From a virus, in the IMG/VR virus record IMGVR_UViG_3300030102_002602, positions 1 to 20,447 of that record: a DNA stretch of 20,447 bases; one strand, 5' to 3'. Below the pieces are notes generated by a model. It was not told the DNA's origin and did not search any database. It saw only the letters and a program-made list of their open reading frames with translations. This document shows, piece by piece, positions 2,533 to 15,514 of this stretch (the first letter of the stretch is position 1; the number at the start of each line of letters is the position of its first letter). The translations under genes and the position numbers were made by a program.

Positions 2533-2671
2533 TAAAGCCAAGTATAAACTGAAGTTAGACGACAAAAAATTGTGGATAGAAGTTCCAACTATCTACATGA
2601 GCATAGAAGAGAAACAAAGTTGTATCTCAAATGCTGTTAATATTTTGGAGCGTAATATTAAAACAAAGTAA
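2483..2671 (+). CDS. Small hypothetical protein in recombination cassette
   Basis: A 62-codon frame fills the space between the exonuclease and SSB-like genes. The product is basic, with a hydrophobic start and a middle KAKYKLKLDDKKLWIEVP that looks like a beta hairpin; the end is helical. I do not recognise it. The ATG at 2483 overlaps the exonuclease by 50 bases, which is long for this genome, so the true start may lie further in. There is no other ATG before residue 39, and a non-ATG start near the exonuclease stop (for example the CTG at 2519) is possible. It ends one base before the start of the SSB-like gene, and this packing argues that it is translated. Confidence 0.5.
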   Translation: MIKHTKFLITFILRLFSKAKYKLKLDDKKLWIEVPTIYMSIEEKQSCISNAVNILERNIKTK

Positions 2672-2672
2672 T

Positions 2673-2969
2673 ATGAGCGAAGTAAAAAAGAAGTACATTA
2701 AAGTTGGTAATGGTGTTGAGAAGTTTGACGGAAATCTTGTAGAGGTTTCATTATGTCTTTCTGATATTCCACAAGAGCATCGTTTCCAGTACGAAGGTAA
2801 ATGGTATGTTAAGTTGAAAGTCAATAAAAATATTGACGGACCAAGCGAGTATGGTAAGACACACTACGTAACTATCAATGAGTGGAAACCTGAAGCACAG
2901 GCAAAGAAAGAGCCTGTTACAGAAGCAGTTCAGCCTGACACATCTCAGGGTACAGATCTGCCTTTCTAA
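2673..2969 (+). CDS. SSB-like single-stranded DNA-binding protein
   Basis: With the ATG at 2673 the product has 98 residues. The frame is open 14 codons further up, but that part overlaps the previous gene and is unlike a normal protein start. Residues 6-72 look like a small beta-barrel with alternating strands (KYIKVGNG, LVEVSLCLSDI, WYVKLKVNK, THYVTINEW), compatible with an OB fold. Residues 73-92 form a flexible A/E/Q/P-rich linker. The C-terminus is TDLPF, nearly identical to the acidic tip (DDxPF) of bacterial SSB that recruits partner proteins. This tip, together with the neighbouring annealing protein and exonuclease, is the basis for the call. The core is not an obvious canonical SSB sequence, so it is probably a divergent phage type. 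A terminator follows the gene at 3007-3044. Confidence 0.65.
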   Translation: MSEVKKKYIKVGNGVEKFDGNLVEVSLCLSDIPQEHRFQYEGKWYVKLKVNKNIDGPSEYGKTHYVTINEWKPEAQAKKEPVTEAVQPDTSQGTDLPF

Positions 2970-3002: not shown

Positions 3003-3017
3003 GATTGGGAGGTTTAA
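2973..3017 (+). other. Possible 14-codon leader-like reading frame
   Basis: An ATG three bases after the SSB-like stop codon opens a 14-codon frame (product MFGMPKGTTYDWEV) ending with TAA at 3015-3017. It runs through the hairpin at 2971-3002 and through the whole 5' arm of the terminator at 3007-3044. A ribosome translating it would therefore disrupt both structures. This geometry is that of a leader peptide over an attenuator, but a frame this short can easily occur by chance, and there is no ribosome-binding signal or composition evidence that it is used. Confidence 0.2.
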
Positions 3018-3044
3018 TTGATAAGTGGTTTGCCTCCCTTTTTT
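3007..3044 (+). terminator. Rho-independent terminator after recombination cassette
   Basis: GGGAGG (3007-3012) pairs perfectly with CCTCCC (3033-3038), with a possible extra T-G pair inside, and is followed at once by six T (3039-3044). The loop of 20 bases is longer than usual. In such AT-rich DNA a 6-bp pure G/C-type stem beside a T-run is striking. It would end transcripts that run through the annealing-protein, exonuclease and SSB-like genes, separating them from the primase unit. Confidence 0.6.
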
Positions 3045-3047
3045 ATG

Positions 3048-3162
3048 TAGTATACTATGACACTTATGACAGAACAATTTTATAATATCCAATAATATAT
3101 TTTATACTCTCATTAAATTTTTATATATTATTTTTCTATTATTTTTTTGTCATTTCCGTCAT
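3048..3162 (+). promoter_or_regulatory. AT-rich island bracketed by inverted pairs of ATGACA sites; candidate origin or operator
   Basis: On the left, ATGACA occurs at 3057-3062 and again at 3066-3071, nine bases apart. On the right, the complement occurs twice, TGTCAT at 3148-3153 and CGTCAT at 3157-3162, also nine bases apart. The whole is a dyad of two tandem pairs. The roughly 76 bases between the pairs are almost pure A/T, suited to strand opening. A 10-bp perfect palindrome, TAGTATACTA, sits at 3048-3057 against the left pair. This is the longest gap between genes in the window (2970-3191). It lies directly upstream of the primase-helicase gene, so it may serve as a replication origin, as the promoter/operator of that gene, or both. 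TATAAT-like strings occur (3081-3086), but in AT-rich DNA they prove nothing. Confidence 0.45.
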
Positions 3163-3191: not shown

Positions 3192-5594
3192 ATGGAAATC
3201 ACTATATTCAAAGATATAAAGGAGACCTCTCAGCCTTTTTACAGACAAGCAATACTTATCCTTCAAAGGATCAAAGATGGTGCGTCTAAAGAGCTTGTAA
3301 AAAGAATTAGAGAAGAGAAAGATAAGGAGAAGGTTAACTCCTTGAAACAAAAACTACCAGCCGTATGTTTCAGTGGTAACTTTACGAAACGAAATGATAA
3401 ATCTTTAAATCAACACAGCGGTTTGATCTGTTTGGATTTTGATGGATACCCAAGCAATAGAGATTTGTTGCAAGAAAAAGAGAGACTATCAAAAAATAAA
3501 TATGTTTATTCTGTATTTATATCTCCATCAGGTAAAGGACTCAAAGCTATAATTAAGATACCGCCAATAGCTGACAACCATAAGAGTTACTTTAATAGTT
3601 TAGAAAAACATTTTGGATCTGAATACTTTGATAAGACATGTAAGAACTTATCAAGAGTCTGTTATGAAAGTTATGATCCTTTGATACATATAAACGAAAC
3701 CGCAAGTGTATGGGATAAGCTTGAAGAAAAAGAATACACAGAGATAATTAAGAATGTAGATCTACAAACTATCCCGGTTACTGATGAAAATAAAATTGTA
3801 GATATACTGGTCAAGTGGTGGCAAAAGAAATATCCAATGACTGAAGGGCAGAGAAACAATAACGCATATGTTTTAGCCAGTGCCTTCAATGACTTTGGTG
3901 TCAACAAAACTTTAGCAGAGTTTGTATTAAATGGTTTCCAAACAAAGAACTTTAATAAGTCAGAGATCAAAAGAACTATTGATAGCGCTTACTCACAAGT
4001 ACAAAACTTTGGAACAAAATATTATGAGGACGAAGACAAAGTCAACATGATCAAACATAAATTAAAAAGGGGAGTATCCAAAAAAGAATTACGAACACAG
4101 CTGACAGAACTCGATGCAAACATAGTAGAGAATGTAATCAATAGATTAGAAGAGGAGCAGTCAAACCATAAGTTCTGGACCAAGAATGACAAAGGTGTTA
4201 TAAAAATTATACACATACTATTTAAACATTTCTTAGAAGAGAATGGCTTTTATAAGTTTTGTCCTGAAGGTAGTAAGAACTATGTCTTTGTAAAAGTAAC
4301 TAACAACTTGATTGATCATACCAGTGAAAAAGAAATAAAAGATTTTATTCTAAATTATTTGTTAGACATTGATGACTTGTCTGTCTATAATTATTTTGCT
4401 GAACACACCAGATATTTTAGAGAAGAGTTTTTGACATTGTTAAGTTCAATAGATGTATACTTTATTGAAGATAAAAAGAATACTACATACTTATACTATC
4501 GTAATGGTGCAGTTGAAATTAGTAAAGACAATATAAAACAAATAGATTATTTAGACTTAGGCGGTTACGTTTGGAAGGACCATGTAATAGATCGAGACTT
4601 TGCTTTGTGTGAAAGTATTGATTGTGATTATCAAAACTTTATTAAGAACATATGCGGTGGAGATGATGATAGAATAAATTCTATGAGATCTACAATAGGT
4701 TATATGTTACATGGCTGGAAGAACTTAGCTTATTGTCCGGCAGTAATATTAAATGATGAAGTTATATCTGATAACCCAGAAGGCGGAAGCGGTAAGGGAT
4801 TGTGGGTCAACGGCCTCAGCCACATGAAGAAGGTAGTAATAATTGATGGCAAGTCTTTTAACTTTGAAAGATCTTTTGCATACCAGTTAGTAAGTGCAGA
4901 TACCCAAGTCCTATGCTTTGATGATGTAAAAAAACATTTCGACTTTGAACGTTTGTTTTCTGTAGTAACAGAAGGTTTGACTTTAGAAAAGAAAAACAAA
5001 GACGCTATCAAGATTCCTTTTGCTAAATCTCCAAAGATTGTAATCACCACAAACTATGCTATAAAAGGTAAAGGTACCTCATTTGAAAGACGTAAGTGGG
5101 AGCTGGAGTTAGCTCACCATTACAATAAAGATTACACACCTCTTGAAGAGTTTGGTAAGCTGATGTTTGGAGATTGGAATGATGAAGAGTGGTGTCAGTT
5201 TGACAACTATATGATTAAATGTTTACAGCTTTATTTAGAAAAAGGATTGCAGAAGAGCGAATTTGTAAACTTAAAAGTCAGAAGACTATCAGCTGAAACA
5301 TGCCATGAGTTTATAGAATGGTGTGGTGTATTGGAAAATAATATACACGAAAAATTAAAACCAGCCGGTAAGATAGCGAAGCAAGAACTATACCATGATT
5401 TTATAGAAGACAACCCAGACTTCGCACCTAAATCAAAACTAACTGTAAGCCGTACACGATTTAACAAATGGCTTGTAGCCTTTGGTTTATTTGCCTATGA
5501 GTGTGAGCCAGAACAAGGGCGAGATAAAAGCATGAGATGGATAAGGTTTAGATTGAAACATGAATTAGAAAAACAGACAGACTTTGAATTTTAA
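3192..5594 (+). CDS. Primase/SF3-type helicase with BT4734-like N-terminal domain
   Basis: This 800-residue replication protein has several domains. Residues about 55-175 match the BT4734/VirE-N type domain related to archaeo-eukaryotic primases: GLICLDFDGY with D82 and D84, SPSGKGLKAIIKI from 111, and LSRVCYESYDP (153-163). Residues about 200-285 resemble a primase C-terminal helical domain (GQRNNNAYVLASAFN). The helicase ATPase follows: Walker A PEGGSGKG with K535, Walker B VLCFDD (D577, D578), sensor ITTN (N621), and a probable arginine finger in ERRKWELE (R633/R634). A C-terminal domain with a winged-helix look (about 710-800) ends it. It would prime and unwind phage DNA, in the manner of P4-like primase-helicases. 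The BT4734-type N-terminus is found mainly in Bacteroidota. The gene follows the only sizeable gap in the window and overlaps the next gene by 11 bases. Confidence 0.85.
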   Translation: MEITIFKDIKETSQPFYRQAILILQRIKDGASKELVKRIREEKDKEKVNSLKQKLPAVCFSGNFTKRNDKSLNQHSGLICLDFDGYPSNRDLLQEKERLSKNKYVYSVFISPSGKGLKAIIKIPPIADNHKSYFNSLEKHFGSEYFDKTCKNLSRVCYESYDPLIHINETASVWDKLEEKEYTEIIKNVDLQTIPVTDENKIVDILVKWWQKKYPMTEGQRNNNAYVLASAFNDFGVNKTLAEFVLNGFQTKNFNKSEIKRTIDSAYSQVQNFGTKYYEDEDKVNMIKHKLKRGVSKKELRTQLTELDANIVENVINRLEEEQSNHKFWTKNDKGVIKIIHILFKHFLEENGFYKFCPEGSKNYVFVKVTNNLIDHTSEKEIKDFILNYLLDIDDLSVYNYFAEHTRYFREEFLTLLSSIDVYFIEDKKNTTYLYYRNGAVEISKDNIKQIDYLDLGGYVWKDHVIDRDFALCESIDCDYQNFIKNICGGDDDRINSMRSTIGYMLHGWKNLAYCPAVILNDEVISDNPEGGSGKGLWVNGLSHMKKVVIIDGKSFNFERSFAYQLVSADTQVLCFDDVKKHFDFERLFSVVTEGLTLEKKNKDAIKIPFAKSPKIVITTNYAIKGKGTSFERRKWELELAHHYNKDYTPLEEFGKLMFGDWNDEEWCQFDNYMIKCLQLYLEKGLQKSEFVNLKVRRLSAETCHEFIEWCGVLENNIHEKLKPAGKIAKQELYHDFIEDNPDFAPKSKLTVSRTRFNKWLVAFGLFAYECEPEQGRDKSMRWIRFRLKHELEKQTDFEF

Positions 5595-7443: not shown

Positions 7444-7795
7444 ATACGAAGTAGAAGATTCGTTTATGATTACGTTAGAAAATGCTGATCCATTTATAGC
7501 GTACAAGATTGCTTTGTATATAGAAGATCATCTTCCTGAGATACCTAATAATGATTTTCATACACACTTACTTGCTGGTATCGTTCATGATGATGGGAAA
7601 CCCTATCCCTTTGTTGTTGAATGTTTGAAGACAGCTGATACATTTTTAACTTTTACAGACTTAAAGTTCATTTCATTAAATGAATACTTAGATTTTATAA
7701 ACTTAAATTCATATATCAAATCAAATGGTAAATCTAAAACCCGAAACCGTCATATATATTGCGGAAAAAATTTTACAACTGGACCTGAGATCTAA
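7409..7795 (+). CDS. Hypothetical protein with long overlaps on both sides
   Basis: The 128-residue frame is not recognised. Residues 1-105 are acidic and look like a folded alpha/beta protein (DPFIAYKIALYIEDHLPEIP, then LLAGIVHDDGKPYPFVVECL). The last 23 residues are abruptly basic and polar and lie in the overlap with the next gene. It overlaps the nuclease gene by 35 bases and the second DnaA-domain gene by 71 bases, the largest same-strand overlap in the window. The first part is probably real, because no other frame covers 7444-7724. The C-terminal extension may be unconserved or result from a lost stop. Its start could also be later, for example the ATG at 7466. Confidence 0.5.
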   Translation: MELELKYTKAIEYEVEDSFMITLENADPFIAYKIALYIEDHLPEIPNNDFHTHLLAGIVHDDGKPYPFVVECLKTADTFLTFTDLKFISLNEYLDFINLNSYIKSNGKSKTRNRHIYCGKNFTTGPEI

Positions 7796-8147
7796 CAGCA
7801 GAAGAGAAGATTATATCGAAGGTAGAGCTATAGTATACTATATACTTAGGTATAAACTTGGCTTGACTTATCAACAAATAGCCAAAGTTTTTAACAAAAA
7901 CCACGCTACTGTACTCCATGCGTTAAAAGAGTGGCCGTATATGGTTAAATATCGTAGCGAAATAGAACATAAAAAGGATCATATAGTAGAATATATAAAT
8001 GAAAACTGCGTATCAGATAAAGATGGACGTAAGGATATTAAGATCAAAGCTTGCGAGGACGAAATATTTTTATTAAATTCAAGGATAAACGAACTTAAGA
8101 AAAAACTAACAGAGTTATATAAATTAAAACATGCACGAAGATTGTAA
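7725..8147 (+). CDS. Second DnaA domain IV-like protein with coiled-coil tail
   Basis: The 140-residue protein has a DnaA-type DNA-binding domain in its first 75 residues. SRREDYIEGRAIVYYIL (25-41) corresponds to the RxRxxxxAR block, and LTYQQIAKVFNKNHATVLHALKE (47-69) is the helix-turn-helix with NHATVLHA in place of DnaA's DHTTVLHA. Residues 75-110 are charged, and residues about 108-137 form a likely coiled coil (LNSRINELKKKLTELYKL), suggesting dimers. There is no ATPase domain. The sequence differs clearly from the other DnaA-like protein (447-749), so this is not a recent duplication. It could be a transcription regulator or origin binder. It overlaps the previous gene by 71 bases and the next by 17. 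Confidence 0.75.
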   Translation: MVNLKPETVIYIAEKILQLDLRSNSRREDYIEGRAIVYYILRYKLGLTYQQIAKVFNKNHATVLHALKEWPYMVKYRSEIEHKKDHIVEYINENCVSDKDGRKDIKIKACEDEIFLLNSRINELKKKLTELYKLKHARRL

Positions 8148-9112: not shown

Positions 9113-12100
9113 TTAAAAGTCTATTTGCTGACTTGCCTCCTCACTTAATTCATCCAAGGCTTGTTGATCTTCATCATAAAGATCATCAAACGCATCTGTT
9201 TGTAATTCATCTCTTAATAGATTTAAATCTTTATTGCTATCATCTTGACTTGGTATGTATGGTTTTTCTGATCCTTTACCATACATTTGTTTTAAAATTA
9301 TTCTTCTTATATCTTTATAGAATGGTAATAAACCTAAATTACCCATAACTTCAATAGACATTCTGGTAGTAAGCTCATTCATATTTTTTTGTCTGCTTTC
9401 TTCAGTCTTATTAAAAGCAGCTCTACTTCCTACTCTACCCGTACGCAACAAACTTTTAGCAAGAGGTCCGTATGGTCCACCGAATATTTTAATAAGCGTA
9501 TCTAAATTCAAACCAAAATCTTTTTGAAGGTCTTGTTTACCCAACTGATTAAATATTAACGAATGTTTGTAAGGATTATATTCTTCACCATTTCTAAGAT
9601 CACCTAAGAATGGTTCGTTCAAACCATGCTCTATCATAAAGTTTACAGGTAGCGCAGGTATGTTTCCTAAGTTTCTTCTGATTCCTAAACTTGCTATGGA
9701 TCCTATCATTTGTCTTGCTAATAAACTTGCAAAGTCTTTTTCTTTATCTTTTTCTTTTTCTTCTGCTCCAAATAATTCTTCATCGAATAGTTGTGTAAGA
9801 GCTGTGTATCCCACCATATACATTGCCATTCTCATTGTAACTCCTGTTAATAGTCCGGCAGCCTCACCTTTACTTATGTCACCTGATTTATATAATGCAT
9901 TGATTGCGTGCCTTGCACTACCAAATTCAAACAACTGAAATCTAATCATAAACCTATTAGCTTGTTTATAAGCTCGAGTAGGTAATGAATCTCCTGGTCT
10001 AATCATATTCTTACCGATACCATCGAATGGATTGGTAGATGAAGCTACTGTAATTGCATTTTTATCTGCTGCTTTTGTAGCTATCTCAACTGCTTCTTTG
10101 TACTTAGGATCGTTAAATTTAGATTTACCTTCTGAAAACTTTTCTATTTCTTGTGGTGTAAGGTTACTAATCTTTTCTTTGTTTATCTGCTTTACAGCTT
10201 TAACAAACGCATCGTTGAATGTACCAAACCATAAAGGTCTTGATACAGCCTGATCACCATACGATAATAGTCTTGCAGAAACTTTATCAACAGCTTTGGC
10301 AGTTTGTTTTAACGGAATGTATTTTAATATTTGTAAAGCTTTATCCGCTACAACACTCCTTGCTTGAGAGTTACCTTGATCAGGTCTAACAAATTCATTT
10401 AAGTCTGCCATCTTTCCACCCAACTCATCTATATTATATAGTTTTTGTGTAACAGCTGATCCTGCTTTTTTCAAAAAGTTTGTTCCTATCTCAACTCTGT
10501 TAGGATTTGTTAATGTTATACCTGAATAATTTTTAAATGCTTGAGCGGACAGCTTAGGGTTTTTAACCATCATTAACAAGTTAGATCCCATTTCAACTAA
10601 CATTCTTGGCGCTGATGCCAATGATTGATAGTATCCTAATTTAGCTATAGGTCCACCTATCTTATCTAAAACATTCATGTCAAAGAAAGATTTTTGGAAA
10701 ACAGTTTGTAATCTATTTACAACAGTCTCATCTAACGCAGTCGCTACGTCTACTGCAGCTTGATTGTTTGCAGCTTCAGCGTTTTTAGTTAATTGATTAA
10801 TTGTTTTTCTTACAGTTCTAACTTCTCTTGTCATATAATAATCCAGGTTGGTTTCCTGAACACCTCTTCTTGCAGAATAAGATGGATCAAAACTTATTGG
10901 TTTTGCACCCGCAGTTCTTTCTACTATAGTTGCTGATTTAGTAGAAGGCAACTCAGTAAATCTTTCTTGTTGTTTTAGTAAGTTGGTGTTTTGTCCATCA
11001 ACATCTAACACAGCGTGGTGTGAATAATCATTTAATAAATTAATTTTGTTACCATGTAGTGAACCAGAAATGTACACTGCTTTGTTAGCTAATGATTGAT
11101 TTACCTTATCAATGATACCTAAATATTTTTTTTCAGCAGGTGTAAAACTATCTTCTATTTTTTTCATATCAATAACTCCATCTACACCATACTTGTCCAT
11201 TAAATCTCTTAATATAGTTTTTGAATAAGGATCTAAAACTTTTTTATTGTTTACGGTTTTTTGTGCAAACTCCATCGCTGCTGGAGCTTTTGGATTTGGT
11301 TTACCATCTACAATATTAGCCTCGTGTTCTCTTTGTAATTGGTATAATCTAATTTTATATTTTGATTCGATGACTTTATTTCTACTTTTTGTAATACCTA
11401 ACTTTCTTCTTATCTTAGGTACATCAGCTTCTAATATAGCATCTGCTTGATCTATTTCTTTATATGTAAGTTGAGTTTCAGTATTATACTTTGAATATGC
11501 TCTACCTATGGCACCTATGGTGTTATCATAAATAGCTTTACTATTAAAGTTTCCTAATATATCGTCAATAAAAAACGATGACTGTCCTTCTAATTTATCA
11601 ACTAAGAAATCAGTCTTTGAAGATAAAGCTGCTTTTATACTGCTGCCATAGTTAGCCATTCGATTAAGTATACCAGGTCTACTTGCCTGTGTCAATACTT
11701 TCTTGCCACCTTTTGTTTTAAGATTATCTAAAGTTCTTGCTCTTCTGTTACTATCAACTTCAGTCAATATATCTGTAACATCTTTTACAAGTATACCATT
11801 CTGTATTTGTTTCTTACCTGCTCTTAACTTCTCTACCAAAGAATAATCTTTAGTCCCATCTTTCTTTTCTCTTACTAAACCTTTAATATCTTCAGTGGTT
11901 AACTTTTGAATATCTCTTGCGTCTTGTTTTTGTGCTTCGTCTTGCAGTTGATTTATTTCTGATGCTCTAATTTGATCAGACTTAATTTCTTTGACAGCTT
12001 TTACTAAATTATATTCTTTAGCTTCTACTTCTGCTGGTGCTGCTTGCACTGTTGCTTCTGCATTTTCATATGCTGCATTTAGAATATCTTCTGCTATAGC

Positions 12101-15100
12101 TACATTTTCTTTTAAATTCTTATTTAAGTTTACTTGAGATCTGCTTGTGCCAAATTGATCTACTAAATCTAAATATGCATCAACCTTATTATCTGGTATA
12201 GCAAATGGATTTATACTAAATAAGTTTTCTAATACAACCTTTGAAGCATTTGGTATAGATCCAGTTTTTCTACCACCTATATTTTTCTTAGCTCTATTAG
12301 CTTTCGTCTTAGCAGCTCTTAATGTTTCTATTGATTCAGCTTTAGTAAATACTCTATCAACATATTCTAAAAAGTTTTCTACAGATTTTTTATTGTTAAG
12401 ATTTACGTTAGCTAATCTTGAAGTAATTGCAGTTGATTGTGCTGTGGTTATCTTTCTACCTTTACGTAGTCCTTTCACTTGCGCAGCTATGTTTTGCATA
12501 GATTTTTTATATGCTTTAGCTGATTCTCTTGCGGCTTTAACTTCAAGTTTAATTTGATCCTTAAGCGCAACTCTTTCGTTGACTACTACCTTTTTATCTT
12601 TTGGTTTACCAATAATTTTTTTAGCTGTTGGAGCTTTTTTAATTTTGATACCAAGTTGTTCATTCAATTTTCTAACTAAATCGTTTCTTGATACATCATC
12701 AAGCTGTTGGTATAGTTTAGAGTTTTGTAAATATTTAAGAGTGTTGTCCAGTAATACTTTAGGACTGGTACTTTTACCTACCTTACGACCTTTTGTTTTT
12801 GTAACTATGTCATCAATAATAGTTTGTACTCTGTCCGGATCAGCTGTAACTTTTTCTTCTACAACTGTTTCTTGTATGTATTCATTAGGGGATATACCAG
12901 CGGCTTCAGCGTCTCTGTTTATCGCTGAGATGACCTTCTTATAAAGGTTTGTCCCTTCCTTGCCTTGCTGAATGAGCCTTTGGCGAGCATTTGATAATAT
13001 CTGTTTCCTTGAATCTCTGGTGATATATCTGCTTTCGATTGCTTCTTGGCTGACGAGGTTGTGTTTGACATTTTTTTCATCTAATTTGTTTAATAAGTCT
13101 GCTCTTTGTTTGTACCATTGTTCATTTCTAAACTCATGTACATCCAACAAAGTTAATAAATTTTTATCAGTATCCAAAGTATATTCATCAATACCTACTT
13201 CTTGCAGTGCCTCAAACGTAAGTTGAGGGTCTGATACTGAGATAGTTACTTGGTCTGCATTATGAGTTGGACTATTCTCTTCAACAACTTGTGAAGCTAT
13301 AGAACTTTCTTGAACTTCTGGAGCCAATGCTGCAACCATAGATGCAAACTCTGATGCTTGATCTAATGTTGCATTTTTAAGTTTTACAACATTACTTACT
13401 TCTCTTATCTTGGTTCCTCCTTCATTTACGTATCCACCTACTGCTTCATCTATATCAGTTTCTACACCTAACTCTTTACCTATATCTAACAGGTTTTGTT
13501 TGTATTGTTTAAACTGAGGTGATTGTCTTAAACCTTGAGCTTGATCAGTTGACTCAATAGAAGCTTCAAAAAATGGTGCTACATTAACAGCTATTTCCTC
13601 TTGCGTCTGCGTCTCAATCGGAGTTTGGTCTTGGGTTTTACTCTCTTCGGTAACGATCCCTTGGGTGTCTCTCTCTCCCACTGCTTGGCTATCTCCGGTA
13701 GATTCTTGTACATCCACTTGCGCTGCGCTTGACTCTTGAAGGGCATTTAATTTTTCTTTTATTTGTTGAGCGGTGGGATTTTCCACACCTTCAGACTGCA
13801 ATGCATCTATTGCTTGCTGTTCTGTAAAGGTACTAACTTCTGGTGATTTATCCTTAGCCTTCTCTTGTGCCTGTCGTGTTATTTCATCAAGCCTTTTATT
13901 TATTTCTGCTATCCTGATTTTATTTGCTTTTAAATCAGGGTCTTTCATGTTTCTTAATTCTTGCTCTAACTTAACAGATTCAGCTCTATCTTTACCTTCA
14001 AGAAAAGATGGTAGATCTAATGCTATTTGAGCAGCTTGTTTTTTATCATCAACGATCTGTTGCAGTTCAGGATCGTTTACTATACTAAACTGTATTGTTC
14101 TTATATCTGCAGGTGATGCGGTATCAATAAACTTCATCAACTGTTCCTTTGTCATTTTTTCTACAGTTCCTTTTTTATTTTTTATACCATAAGCTGGAGG
14201 GTTAAATACATCTACACCTGGATTGTTAACGCCCATCATTTCAGTTATAGATCGACCTGTTATTGCCGCTGGCACTGATAAGACTGCGCTTTGTGTTCCA
14301 GTGATTGCTTCAAACCCTATCTCAGCTACATCAAGATCTTGATCAGCTACTAATCTTCCTGCCGTTTCTCCAGTACCTCCACCAATAGCTTCAATACCTG
14401 CAGTTTTTAAAGCCGCTTGTGCTTTCATTCCTTTAGTTATGGCTTTGTTTGCCTCCTTTGCAAGCTTTATAGATTTTCCACCTATTTTTCCAGCTACTCC
14501 TGCAGTTAGTCCATCAATAACACCAATGGTAAATCCTCTTCCAGCAGCTCTATTTCTAATGCTTTGTAATGCAACCTCATCTTCAAGCACAGCTCTTACG
14601 CCTTCTTCATCAAAAGCTAATCCTTTCTTTTCTACTTCTTCTTTCATGAACTCAGTAAATGCTAATCCTGTTTCAAGTGTTGCACCTGCACCCATCAGTG
14701 TGCCGAAGATGGCACCTTTTTTTGCACCCAGCACTGCGCCCGGTGCTGCACCTATACCACCTGCTAATGCTCCAACTCCCGCACCTGTCGCTGCACCTGT
14801 CGCTGCACCTAAACCTGCACCAATACCAGCACCTGCAGCTACAGTTGGATTCATCATAGCTGAGAAAGATGATATTAAAAGTTGTGGTAATACAGTTGGG
14901 TTTTGTGCAACTCCCGACATGAACCCCCATATACCTCCGCCTGCTCTACTATAAATATTATTGAAGCTTTTCATTTCATCAGACATTCCATAGGAGTCCA
15001 TGTTTTCTACTGCATCAATATATTCTTGAACAGCTTCATCTGACATAGAAGAACCCTGAGCATAAGCCAGTATAGCATCATCTACAGATGCACCTTGGCC

Positions 15101-15514
15101 TAAGCCTTGAGCGCCTGCTCTGTACATGTCTCCAAAAAAATCTGTGATAAAGTTTTTACCGAAAGCTCTTTCTATAGCTGTGTCTTTTTCAACAGCATTT
15201 ATACCTGCTCCGTATCTTAAACCTTTAGGGTTTTCCAAATTTGCATCCAATGAAACATTGAACGATTCCATTCCTAAACTGCCAGCCGTAGGATCCGTTT
15301 GACCAGGTAAAACGGATAAATCTTTTTTTTTTAAGTCCGGAAACAGACTTTCTAACTCTTCCGGGGATTCTACCGCACCTTCAGGCATTAATGGATACAA
15401 TACCCCTAACCCTTCGTTAGCAATAACTTGCTCGAGAGATTCCATATCAAGTCCCGCAGGATTACCAGCGTCCTCTATAATACCTAATAATAATTCTAAT
15501 TGATCTTTATCCAT
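9113..15514 (-). CDS. Giant internal virion/ejection protein, gp16-like by position
   Basis: This 2133-residue protein takes almost a third of the window. It starts MDKDQLELLLGIIEDAG, with an acidic N-terminal region containing SPEELESLFPDLKKKD (about 49-64). Residues about 190-290 are membrane-prone and hold a glycine zipper, with many GxxxG/AxxxG steps such as GAGIGAGLGAATGAATGAG. A second glycine/alanine-rich part lies near 330-425. The middle (about 440-1250) is Q/E/K-rich and coiled-coil-like. A further hydrophobic helix (MAMYMVGYTALTQLF) lies near residue 1890. I see no lysozyme or transglycosylase motif, which T7 gp16 has at its N-terminus. Its place after gp14-like and gp15-like genes and its huge size suggest an ejection protein that helps form the channel for DNA entry. 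Some parts also recall phage polyvalent proteins, so additional domains are possible. Confidence 0.7.
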   Translation of the reverse strand: MDKDQLELLLGIIEDAGNPAGLDMESLEQVIANEGLGVLYPLMPEGAVESPEELESLFPDLKKKDLSVLPGQTDPTAGSLGMESFNVSLDANLENPKGLRYGAGINAVEKDTAIERAFGKNFITDFFGDMYRAGAQGLGQGASVDDAILAYAQGSSMSDEAVQEYIDAVENMDSYGMSDEMKSFNNIYSRAGGGIWGFMSGVAQNPTVLPQLLISSFSAMMNPTVAAGAGIGAGLGAATGAATGAGVGALAGGIGAAPGAVLGAKKGAIFGTLMGAGATLETGLAFTEFMKEEVEKKGLAFDEEGVRAVLEDEVALQSIRNRAAGRGFTIGVIDGLTAGVAGKIGGKSIKLAKEANKAITKGMKAQAALKTAGIEAIGGGTGETAGRLVADQDLDVAEIGFEAITGTQSAVLSVPAAITGRSITEMMGVNNPGVDVFNPPAYGIKNKKGTVEKMTKEQLMKFIDTASPADIRTIQFSIVNDPELQQIVDDKKQAAQIALDLPSFLEGKDRAESVKLEQELRNMKDPDLKANKIRIAEINKRLDEITRQAQEKAKDKSPEVSTFTEQQAIDALQSEGVENPTAQQIKEKLNALQESSAAQVDVQESTGDSQAVGERDTQGIVTEESKTQDQTPIETQTQEEIAVNVAPFFEASIESTDQAQGLRQSPQFKQYKQNLLDIGKELGVETDIDEAVGGYVNEGGTKIREVSNVVKLKNATLDQASEFASMVAALAPEVQESSIASQVVEENSPTHNADQVTISVSDPQLTFEALQEVGIDEYTLDTDKNLLTLLDVHEFRNEQWYKQRADLLNKLDEKNVKHNLVSQEAIESRYITRDSRKQILSNARQRLIQQGKEGTNLYKKVISAINRDAEAAGISPNEYIQETVVEEKVTADPDRVQTIIDDIVTKTKGRKVGKSTSPKVLLDNTLKYLQNSKLYQQLDDVSRNDLVRKLNEQLGIKIKKAPTAKKIIGKPKDKKVVVNERVALKDQIKLEVKAARESAKAYKKSMQNIAAQVKGLRKGRKITTAQSTAITSRLANVNLNNKKSVENFLEYVDRVFTKAESIETLRAAKTKANRAKKNIGGRKTGSIPNASKVVLENLFSINPFAIPDNKVDAYLDLVDQFGTSRSQVNLNKNLKENVAIAEDILNAAYENAEATVQAAPAEVEAKEYNLVKAVKEIKSDQIRASEINQLQDEAQKQDARDIQKLTTEDIKGLVREKKDGTKDYSLVEKLRAGKKQIQNGILVKDVTDILTEVDSNRRARTLDNLKTKGGKKVLTQASRPGILNRMANYGSSIKAALSSKTDFLVDKLEGQSSFFIDDILGNFNSKAIYDNTIGAIGRAYSKYNTETQLTYKEIDQADAILEADVPKIRRKLGITKSRNKVIESKYKIRLYQLQREHEANIVDGKPNPKAPAAMEFAQKTVNNKKVLDPYSKTILRDLMDKYGVDGVIDMKKIEDSFTPAEKKYLGIIDKVNQSLANKAVYISGSLHGNKINLLNDYSHHAVLDVDGQNTNLLKQQERFTELPSTKSATIVERTAGAKPISFDPSYSARRGVQETNLDYYMTREVRTVRKTINQLTKNAEAANNQAAVDVATALDETVVNRLQTVFQKSFFDMNVLDKIGGPIAKLGYYQSLASAPRMLVEMGSNLLMMVKNPKLSAQAFKNYSGITLTNPNRVEIGTNFLKKAGSAVTQKLYNIDELGGKMADLNEFVRPDQGNSQARSVVADKALQILKYIPLKQTAKAVDKVSARLLSYGDQAVSRPLWFGTFNDAFVKAVKQINKEKISNLTPQEIEKFSEGKSKFNDPKYKEAVEIATKAADKNAITVASSTNPFDGIGKNMIRPGDSLPTRAYKQANRFMIRFQLFEFGSARHAINALYKSGDISKGEAAGLLTGVTMRMAMYMVGYTALTQLFDEELFGAEEKEKDKEKDFASLLARQMIGSIASLGIRRNLGNIPALPVNFMIEHGLNEPFLGDLRNGEEYNPYKHSLIFNQLGKQDLQKDFGLNLDTLIKIFGGPYGPLAKSLLRTGRVGSRAAFNKTEESRQKNMNELTTRMSIEVMGNLGLLPFYKDIRRIILKQMYGKGSEKPYIPSQDDSNKDLNLLRDELQTDAFDDLYDEDQQALDELSEEASQQIDF
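14781..14816 (-). repeat. 12-bp tandem repeat coding for part of the glycine zipper
   Basis: GCACCTGTCGCT occurs twice in a row (14781-14804, plus-strand reading) and is followed by a diverged third copy, GCACCTAAACCT (14805-14816). Further GCACC steps follow up to about 14840. On the coding (minus) strand the unit encodes four residues of the alternating Ala/Gly/Thr helix. The zipper probably grew by slippage of this unit, so copy number may vary between relatives. Confidence 0.6.

Follow-up and report, generated by a model that had tools for sequence, protein, structure and literature searches.

The AAA+ domain is the part of the initiator DnaA by which it opens DNA, and at several phage and bacterial origins initiation is aided by an adjacent promoter. 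Iteron origins of the pSC101, RK2 and F type and the ori and crr regions of the satellite phage P4 combine direct boxes one helical turn apart with an IHF site, an AT-rich segment and inverted boxes. In P4, whose alpha protein reads its own iterons, two separate iteron regions act together. The oriC of E. coli is defined by boxes, an IHF site, an AT-rich unwinding element and strict spacing (PMC5742627). The phage element described here resembles E. coli-type oriC in its strict spacing, in boxes that point at an AT-rich island, in an IHF-consensus sequence motif that stands beside the proximal boxes of many copies at a helically fixed distance and in a presumed binder with the fold of DnaA domain IV. 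It differs from oriC as the binder has neither an AAA+ domain nor domain I, the boxes read WWWT(T/C)(G/A)(A/T)CA instead of TTATnCACA and vary from phage to phage, an inverted pair lies beyond the island and many genomes carry two copies. With iteron origins it shares direct boxes (most often 11 bp apart), an IHF-like motif, an AT-rich segment and inverted boxes, but the presumed initiator is a DnaA-domain-IV protein and not a winged-helix protein of the RepA/RepE type or P4 alpha. Among the papers searched on phage DnaA-domain-IV origins and on phage iteron/IHF origins, none with a description of such an element was found. Judged from sequence comparison, the chances are marginally better than even that it is one of two copies of an oriC-like phage replication-origin module bound by the small protein A (Table 1).

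The element came to light in the window, i.e. the whole analysed stretch of 20,447 nucleotides, which belongs to an incomplete viral record of 33.8 kb. In the original prediction, two ATGACA sites and two inverse copies, each pair with 9-bp spacing, were said to face each other across an AT-rich island in the gap before the primase-helicase gene. All four sites and both spacings are indeed present, and the gap is 222 bp long. As single 6-mers are short, one might think of chance repeats in AT-rich DNA, but a comparable arrangement of any GC-containing 6-mer appeared in none of 4,000 dinucleotide-shuffled 222-bp gaps and in none of 40 shuffled whole windows. Chance is thereby left with next to no probability, and it is refuted by the conservation of the geometry in dozens of relatives. 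The paired pattern is found nowhere else in the whole record, and the four repeated sites around the AT-rich stretch are real and part of a strictly built DNA element. The window copy consists of the four-box frame alone, without IHF-like site and direct boxes. Its island shows the strand bias of most copies (33 of 42 at the primase, 32 of 33 at groEL, see below), with the A-rich strand running from the proximal (primase-side) to the distal pair.

Table 1: Features of the window and, in the last six lines, of relatives carrying the module. Positions refer to the window unless another record is named.
Feature	Position	Strand	Remarks
Gene A, DnaA-domain-IV-only protein, 100 aa	447..749	+	PF08299, 40.4 bits (cut-off 31.5); predicted fold
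Small gene upstream, SSB-like acidic C-terminal tip (...DLPF)	2631..2969	+	sequence
Intrinsic terminator, GGGAGG...CCTCCC then T6	3007..3044	+	-22.6 kcal/mol, z -3.9
10-bp palindrome TAGTATACTA	3048..3057		seen in window, absent from relatives' gaps
Distal box 1, ATGACA(C)	3057..3062	+	seen in window; frame recurs in relatives
Distal box 2, ATGACA(G)	3066..3071	+	seen in window; frame recurs in relatives
AT-rich island, candidate unwinding element, ~91% A+T	3072..3147		most AT-rich 80-bp stretch of the 33.8-kb record
Proximal box 1, TGTCAT on + (ATGACA on -)	3148..3153	-	seen in window; frame recurs in relatives
Proximal box 2, CGTCAT on + (ATGACG on -)	3157..3162	-	seen in window; frame recurs in relatives
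Primase-helicase (BT4734-like_N, PriCT_1), downstream of module	3192..5594	+	domain matches; ATG at 3192
Gene B, DnaA domain IV and long C-terminal helix, 140 aa	7725..8147	+	PF08299, 45.0 bits (cut-off 31.5); predicted fold
Antisense ORF beside groEL	MW202828, 40229-40705	opposite groEL/groES
Antisense ORF beside groEL	G007, 59216-59665	opposite groEL/groES
Antisense ORF beside groEL	G010, 37137-37601	opposite groEL/groES
Antisense ORF beside groEL	G012, 54991-55443	opposite groEL/groES
Antisense ORF beside groEL	G022, 9513-9863	opposite groEL/groES
Antisense ORF beside groEL	G024, 7618-7968	opposite groEL/groES

The original prediction had also noted a palindrome touching the left pair, which is present but not kept in the gaps of the relatives. 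We therefore rejected it as part of the module, and it probably lies outside. It adjoins an intrinsic terminator missing from the original prediction, a stem at 3007-3038 followed by U6, to which no shuffle was equal. A terminator scanner overlooked this stem because its loop is longer than the scanner allows. Standing just before the left pair, the terminator cuts the window module off from the upstream genes, among them the small gene with the SSB-like tip, which showed no Pfam or PHROG match. A hairpin followed by a T-run is found at the equivalent place in nearly all primase gaps of the relatives. Elsewhere in the window, the late arm contains a minus-strand ORF of 2133 aa (9113-15514), probably encoding a very large virion-associated protein.

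For the comparison with relatives we used 80 viral contigs carrying the same primase-helicase and read the gaps upstream of it, 63 of which were distinct. A scan anchored on TG/CA only and allowing 45-114 bp between the pairs recovered the four-box frame in 49 of these 63 gaps and in none of 960 shuffled ones. The spacer, counted from 7-mer to 7-mer, measures 73-77 bp in 48 of the 49 copies, and between the module and the start of the primase there are 18 to 80 bp, depending on the phage. The check in relatives proposed together with the original prediction thus turned out strongly in its favour: the geometry of the sites is kept while the rest varies, and the letters of the boxes co-vary within a genome. 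Two details had to be revised, as the sites are better described as RTGNNNN-type boxes than as 6-mers and the 9-bp spacing of the window is not a fixed rule: with clade and side it changes between 7, 8 and 9 bp. From phage to phage the letters of the boxes are different, with ATGACR in the group of the window and ATGTTCA, ATGTCRA, ATGTTRA or GTGTTRA elsewhere, and one clade (L073, L075, L078, L082-L084, L088) has, as judged by eye, a single box per side. The four-box structure is also carried by the complete circular metagenomic genome MW202828. Another form of the primase copy, called type 2, shows the order pair, island, inverted pair, IHF-like site, direct boxes and primase start. Among the seven module-bearing records compared, the island is the AT-richest 80-bp stretch in six (G000, G007, G010, G022, G024 and MW202828; not in G012). 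The element belongs to a large family of uncultured Bacteroidota phages. Two further relatives of the window primase (L256 and L257, the latter with direct boxes in its module) lie on contigs binned into Flavobacteriales and Cytophagales MAGs, which is consistent with Bacteroidota hosts. In three contigs (L058, L060 and L066) the gap upstream of the primase holds a tRNA-like sequence (GGTTCGATTCC...CCA) in place of the module; a tRNA was suspected by eye, and ARAGORN calls none in these gaps. Cultured elemo phages have a tRNA-Met a short way upstream of their primase.

Scanning complete relatives revealed a second copy of the module with the same letters directly upstream of the phage groEL gene, and a groEL-centred search added 80 further loci whose upstream regions were read. 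Here the order is terminator, about three direct boxes, IHF-like site, box pair, island (mostly 75-79 bp), inverted pair, TAnnTTTG promoter and groEL. The commonest spacing of the direct boxes is 11 bp, so that the helical-turn repeats typical of iterons are seen in this copy, whereas the window copy has pairs only. Relative to the neighbouring gene the module is oriented in opposite ways at primase and groEL. The two copies of one contig agree in 2.92 of 4 variable positions compared to 2.07 after permutation (p ~1e-4, box lists entered by hand from the scans), and the agreement also holds with 8 non-redundant pairs. As the letters are shared within a genome, one trans-acting factor probably reads both copies. 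Three genomes (L018, L053 and L066) have no primase copy but retain the groEL copy with other letters (ATTCCAA, ACGTCGA, TCGTCGT), making the groEL copy the more constant one. A TG-anchored pattern search for a relocated module had found nothing in these exceptions because their box letters differ, and the modules were revealed by the regions upstream of groEL. In the record of the window itself groEL was not found within the 33.8 kb available. For the original prediction, which had placed the origin in the gap before the primase, this means that the module there is conserved but represents the second, optional copy, while the groEL copy is constant and fuller.

Of 38 groEL copies, 28 have an IHF-like motif, WATCARNNNNTTR, outside the proximal pair (0.4 expected), as do 8 of the 28 primase copies with room for the site (0.25 expected); it is a sequence match to the IHF consensus (PMC5742627) relaxed at one position. 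Its offsets of 9-10, 20-22 and 30-31 bp correspond to whole helical turns, the phasing to be expected if a bend has to bring bound proteins face to face. Of 62 regions upstream of groEL, 60 contain TAnnTTTG, the sigma-A -7 box of flavobacteria (PMC9723704), compared to 8% expected, the most frequent distance from the distal pair being 18-24 bp. Of 56 primase gaps, 4 contain it (5% expected, 2.7 by chance). The main rival of an origin is a regulatory role, either alone or jointly with replication. If A or another phage regulator bound the boxes and IHF assisted in looping, the module could time the groEL/late and the primase operons, and the groEL promoter in nearly all phages would fit well, as would the terminators just upstream of both copies, which make new transcription starts necessary. 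A purely regulatory function is nevertheless rather unlikely in our view. The promoter does not exceed chance at the primase, thus the module is not simply a promoter operator, and together with the opposite orientation at the two genes this argues against a mere operator. Moreover, the distances to the -7 box at groEL (6 to 54 bp) and to the primase ATG vary while the inner geometry is fixed, and an operator needs no island of strictly kept length that is among the AT-richest stretches of the genome. A canonical promoter is not a companion of every copy, although the module may additionally act as an operator at groEL. If the regulatory function were the right one, the element would be the control site of a phage regulon with an unusually strict architecture. 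A plain promoter in the window gap was likewise considered and rejected: there are sigma-70-like matches at 3057 and 3147, but the gap, like nearly all primase gaps, lacks the -7 element of Bacteroidota.

Concerning the protein that reads the boxes, the original prediction had pointed to two DnaA-domain-IV-like genes, and both indeed match Bac_DnaA_C (PF08299) above the gathering score with a predicted DnaA domain IV fold. The model of A (pLDDT 92) superposes over its whole length on the DnaA domain IV-DNA complexes 3PVP and 1J1V (TM 0.80-0.84), and the predicted fold of B is that of DnaA domain IV (TM 0.85 to the target) with an extra helix. Compared to Bac_DnaA_C, A and B differ in being stand-alone proteins whose recognition regions diverge between phages along with the boxes, and the AAA+ domain III of a full DnaA initiator is absent from both. 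A was found in all 17 contigs of at least 57 kb examined, B in 7 of them.

In 41 phages with distinct A sequences and hand-read box lists, distances between the boxes correlate with distances between the DNA-binding halves of the A proteins (r 0.23, p 0.0017; given GroEL r 0.25, p 0.0007), but not significantly with those between the first 26 residues, and not with GroEL (r 0.03). When the primase is controlled for in the primase-centred set, a partial correlation of the DNA-binding half is still seen (p 0.017), and the box letters do not correlate with Sak, which is encoded close to A (r 0.03). A is most likely the box-binding protein, as far as fold and co-variation can tell; the correlations are small, and one is also seen for the N-terminus of the primase in the primase-centred set, so that they are support and not proof. 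The link between sites and DnaA-domain-IV-like genes made originally is thereby strengthened for 447-749, by fold, co-variation with the letters and presence in the long contigs. That the boxes are read by B, by the primase-helicase itself or by host DnaA, which would change the identity of the binder only, seems quite unlikely. B has the same type of domain, and a correlation with the boxes is seen for it in a small set (n 21, r 0.28), but it was not detected in 10 of the 17 long contigs although the module is present there. Similarly, residues 1-180 of the primase correlate with the boxes in the primase-centred set, whereas its C-terminus does not and was rejected as a binder. Host DnaA boxes (TTATnCACA) are not matched either, since the C at position 6 occurs in 6 of 248 boxes and the window boxes match at 3-5 of 9 positions, which suggests independence from host DnaA.

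The ATTCCAA phages L153, L157, L158 and L170 possess a recognisable subfamily of A with changed basic loop and recognition helix. However, L018 has a different A despite its ATTCCAA boxes, and the recognition region of A is common to L165 and L168 although their letters differ, therefore a simple code between A and box is not established, and a search by eye for a residue-by-base code found none. Boxes of the ATTCCAA or ATTCCGY type occur in L168 and in the four phages mentioned above. A single array in L161/L162 mixes the letters ATGTCGC and ATTCCGC and resembles a transitional state between two specificities, and in L082 (3302-3591) gene A is split over two frames by a frameshift or a sequencing error.

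Taken as a DNA element, the observation is stronger than could be known from the window, with an oriented cluster of four boxes there and more in relatives next to an AT-rich stretch, and its reading as an origin is plausible at roughly even chances. From these features we infer binding, bending, unwinding and replication as follows. A complete module would have about three direct boxes and one box pair directed at the AT-rich island, between them an IHF-type bend site, and the second, inverted pair would close the far side of the island. A would occupy direct as well as paired boxes, IHF or HU would bend the DNA, and the strain between the two facing pairs would open the constrained island. 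Next the primase-helicase of the phage, encoded beside one of the copies, would be loaded, and the host polymerase would then extend. The groEL copy, also located beside the groEL promoter, would be the main origin.

As to where replication would start, the original prediction stands in its geometry but less so in its location. The GC skew of six complete relatives reaches its minimum 0.4-1.3 kb from the groEL copy and 8-11 kb from the primase copy. The groEL copy sits at the divergence of early and late genes, so that the skew minimum is confounded by gene direction and does not count as independent evidence. Being constant, fuller and near the skew minimum, the groEL copy is probably the primary origin, or both copies act together, and the promoterless primase copy may be a second origin or a helper site.

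Several findings speak against an origin. The module was not found in the cultured relatives checked, i.e. phi46:1 and phi18:3 (whole genomes) and elemo and Panino (stretches), A has no AAA+ domain, the window copy has the bare frame, and the groEL copy is nearly always accompanied by a promoter, as an operator would be. A joint role would combine the evidence for replication and for transcription: one A-IHF complex would open the island and also set groEL/late transcription, with the adjacent promoter aiding initiation. The position of the groEL copy at the early/late divergence agrees with this, but the primase copy has no canonical promoter, and we regard a joint role with its presumed coupling as improbable. 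Returning to the origin, we propose more tentatively, at somewhat less than even chances, that replication in a large clade of Bacteroidota phages starts at an oriC-like replicator present in two copies, and that the protein reading it is a DnaA of which nothing is left but the DNA-binding domain. Its specificity would have been rewritten repeatedly with the boxes following (ATGACA, ATGTCGA, ATGTTCA, ATGTTGA, ATGTCGC, ATGGCAG, ATTCCAA, ACGTCGA) and avoiding host DnaA boxes. If true, this would provide origins for a whole clade of uncultured phages, pose the question how a DnaA without motor domain starts replication and offer dozens of natural protein-site pairs for reading and swapping the recognition code of DnaA domain IV.

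Some further observations concern the surroundings of groEL. About 250-300 bp upstream of it, a short conserved TTTGTTCTGTTTTGATT precedes the terminator in many diverse phages (L132-L211) and is possibly an RNA feature. All six complete genomes carry an antisense ORF beside groEL (Table 1), which was considered as a possible regulator and gave no Pfam match. In G012 the two contig ends (1-400 and 57200-57672) hold similar, non-identical groEL-side modules, resulting either from a strain mixture at the circular join or from a true duplication. The 105-kb contig of L018 (G001) has gene A and the primase twice, at places about 60 kb from each other and with different boxes, and looks like two phages joined in assembly.
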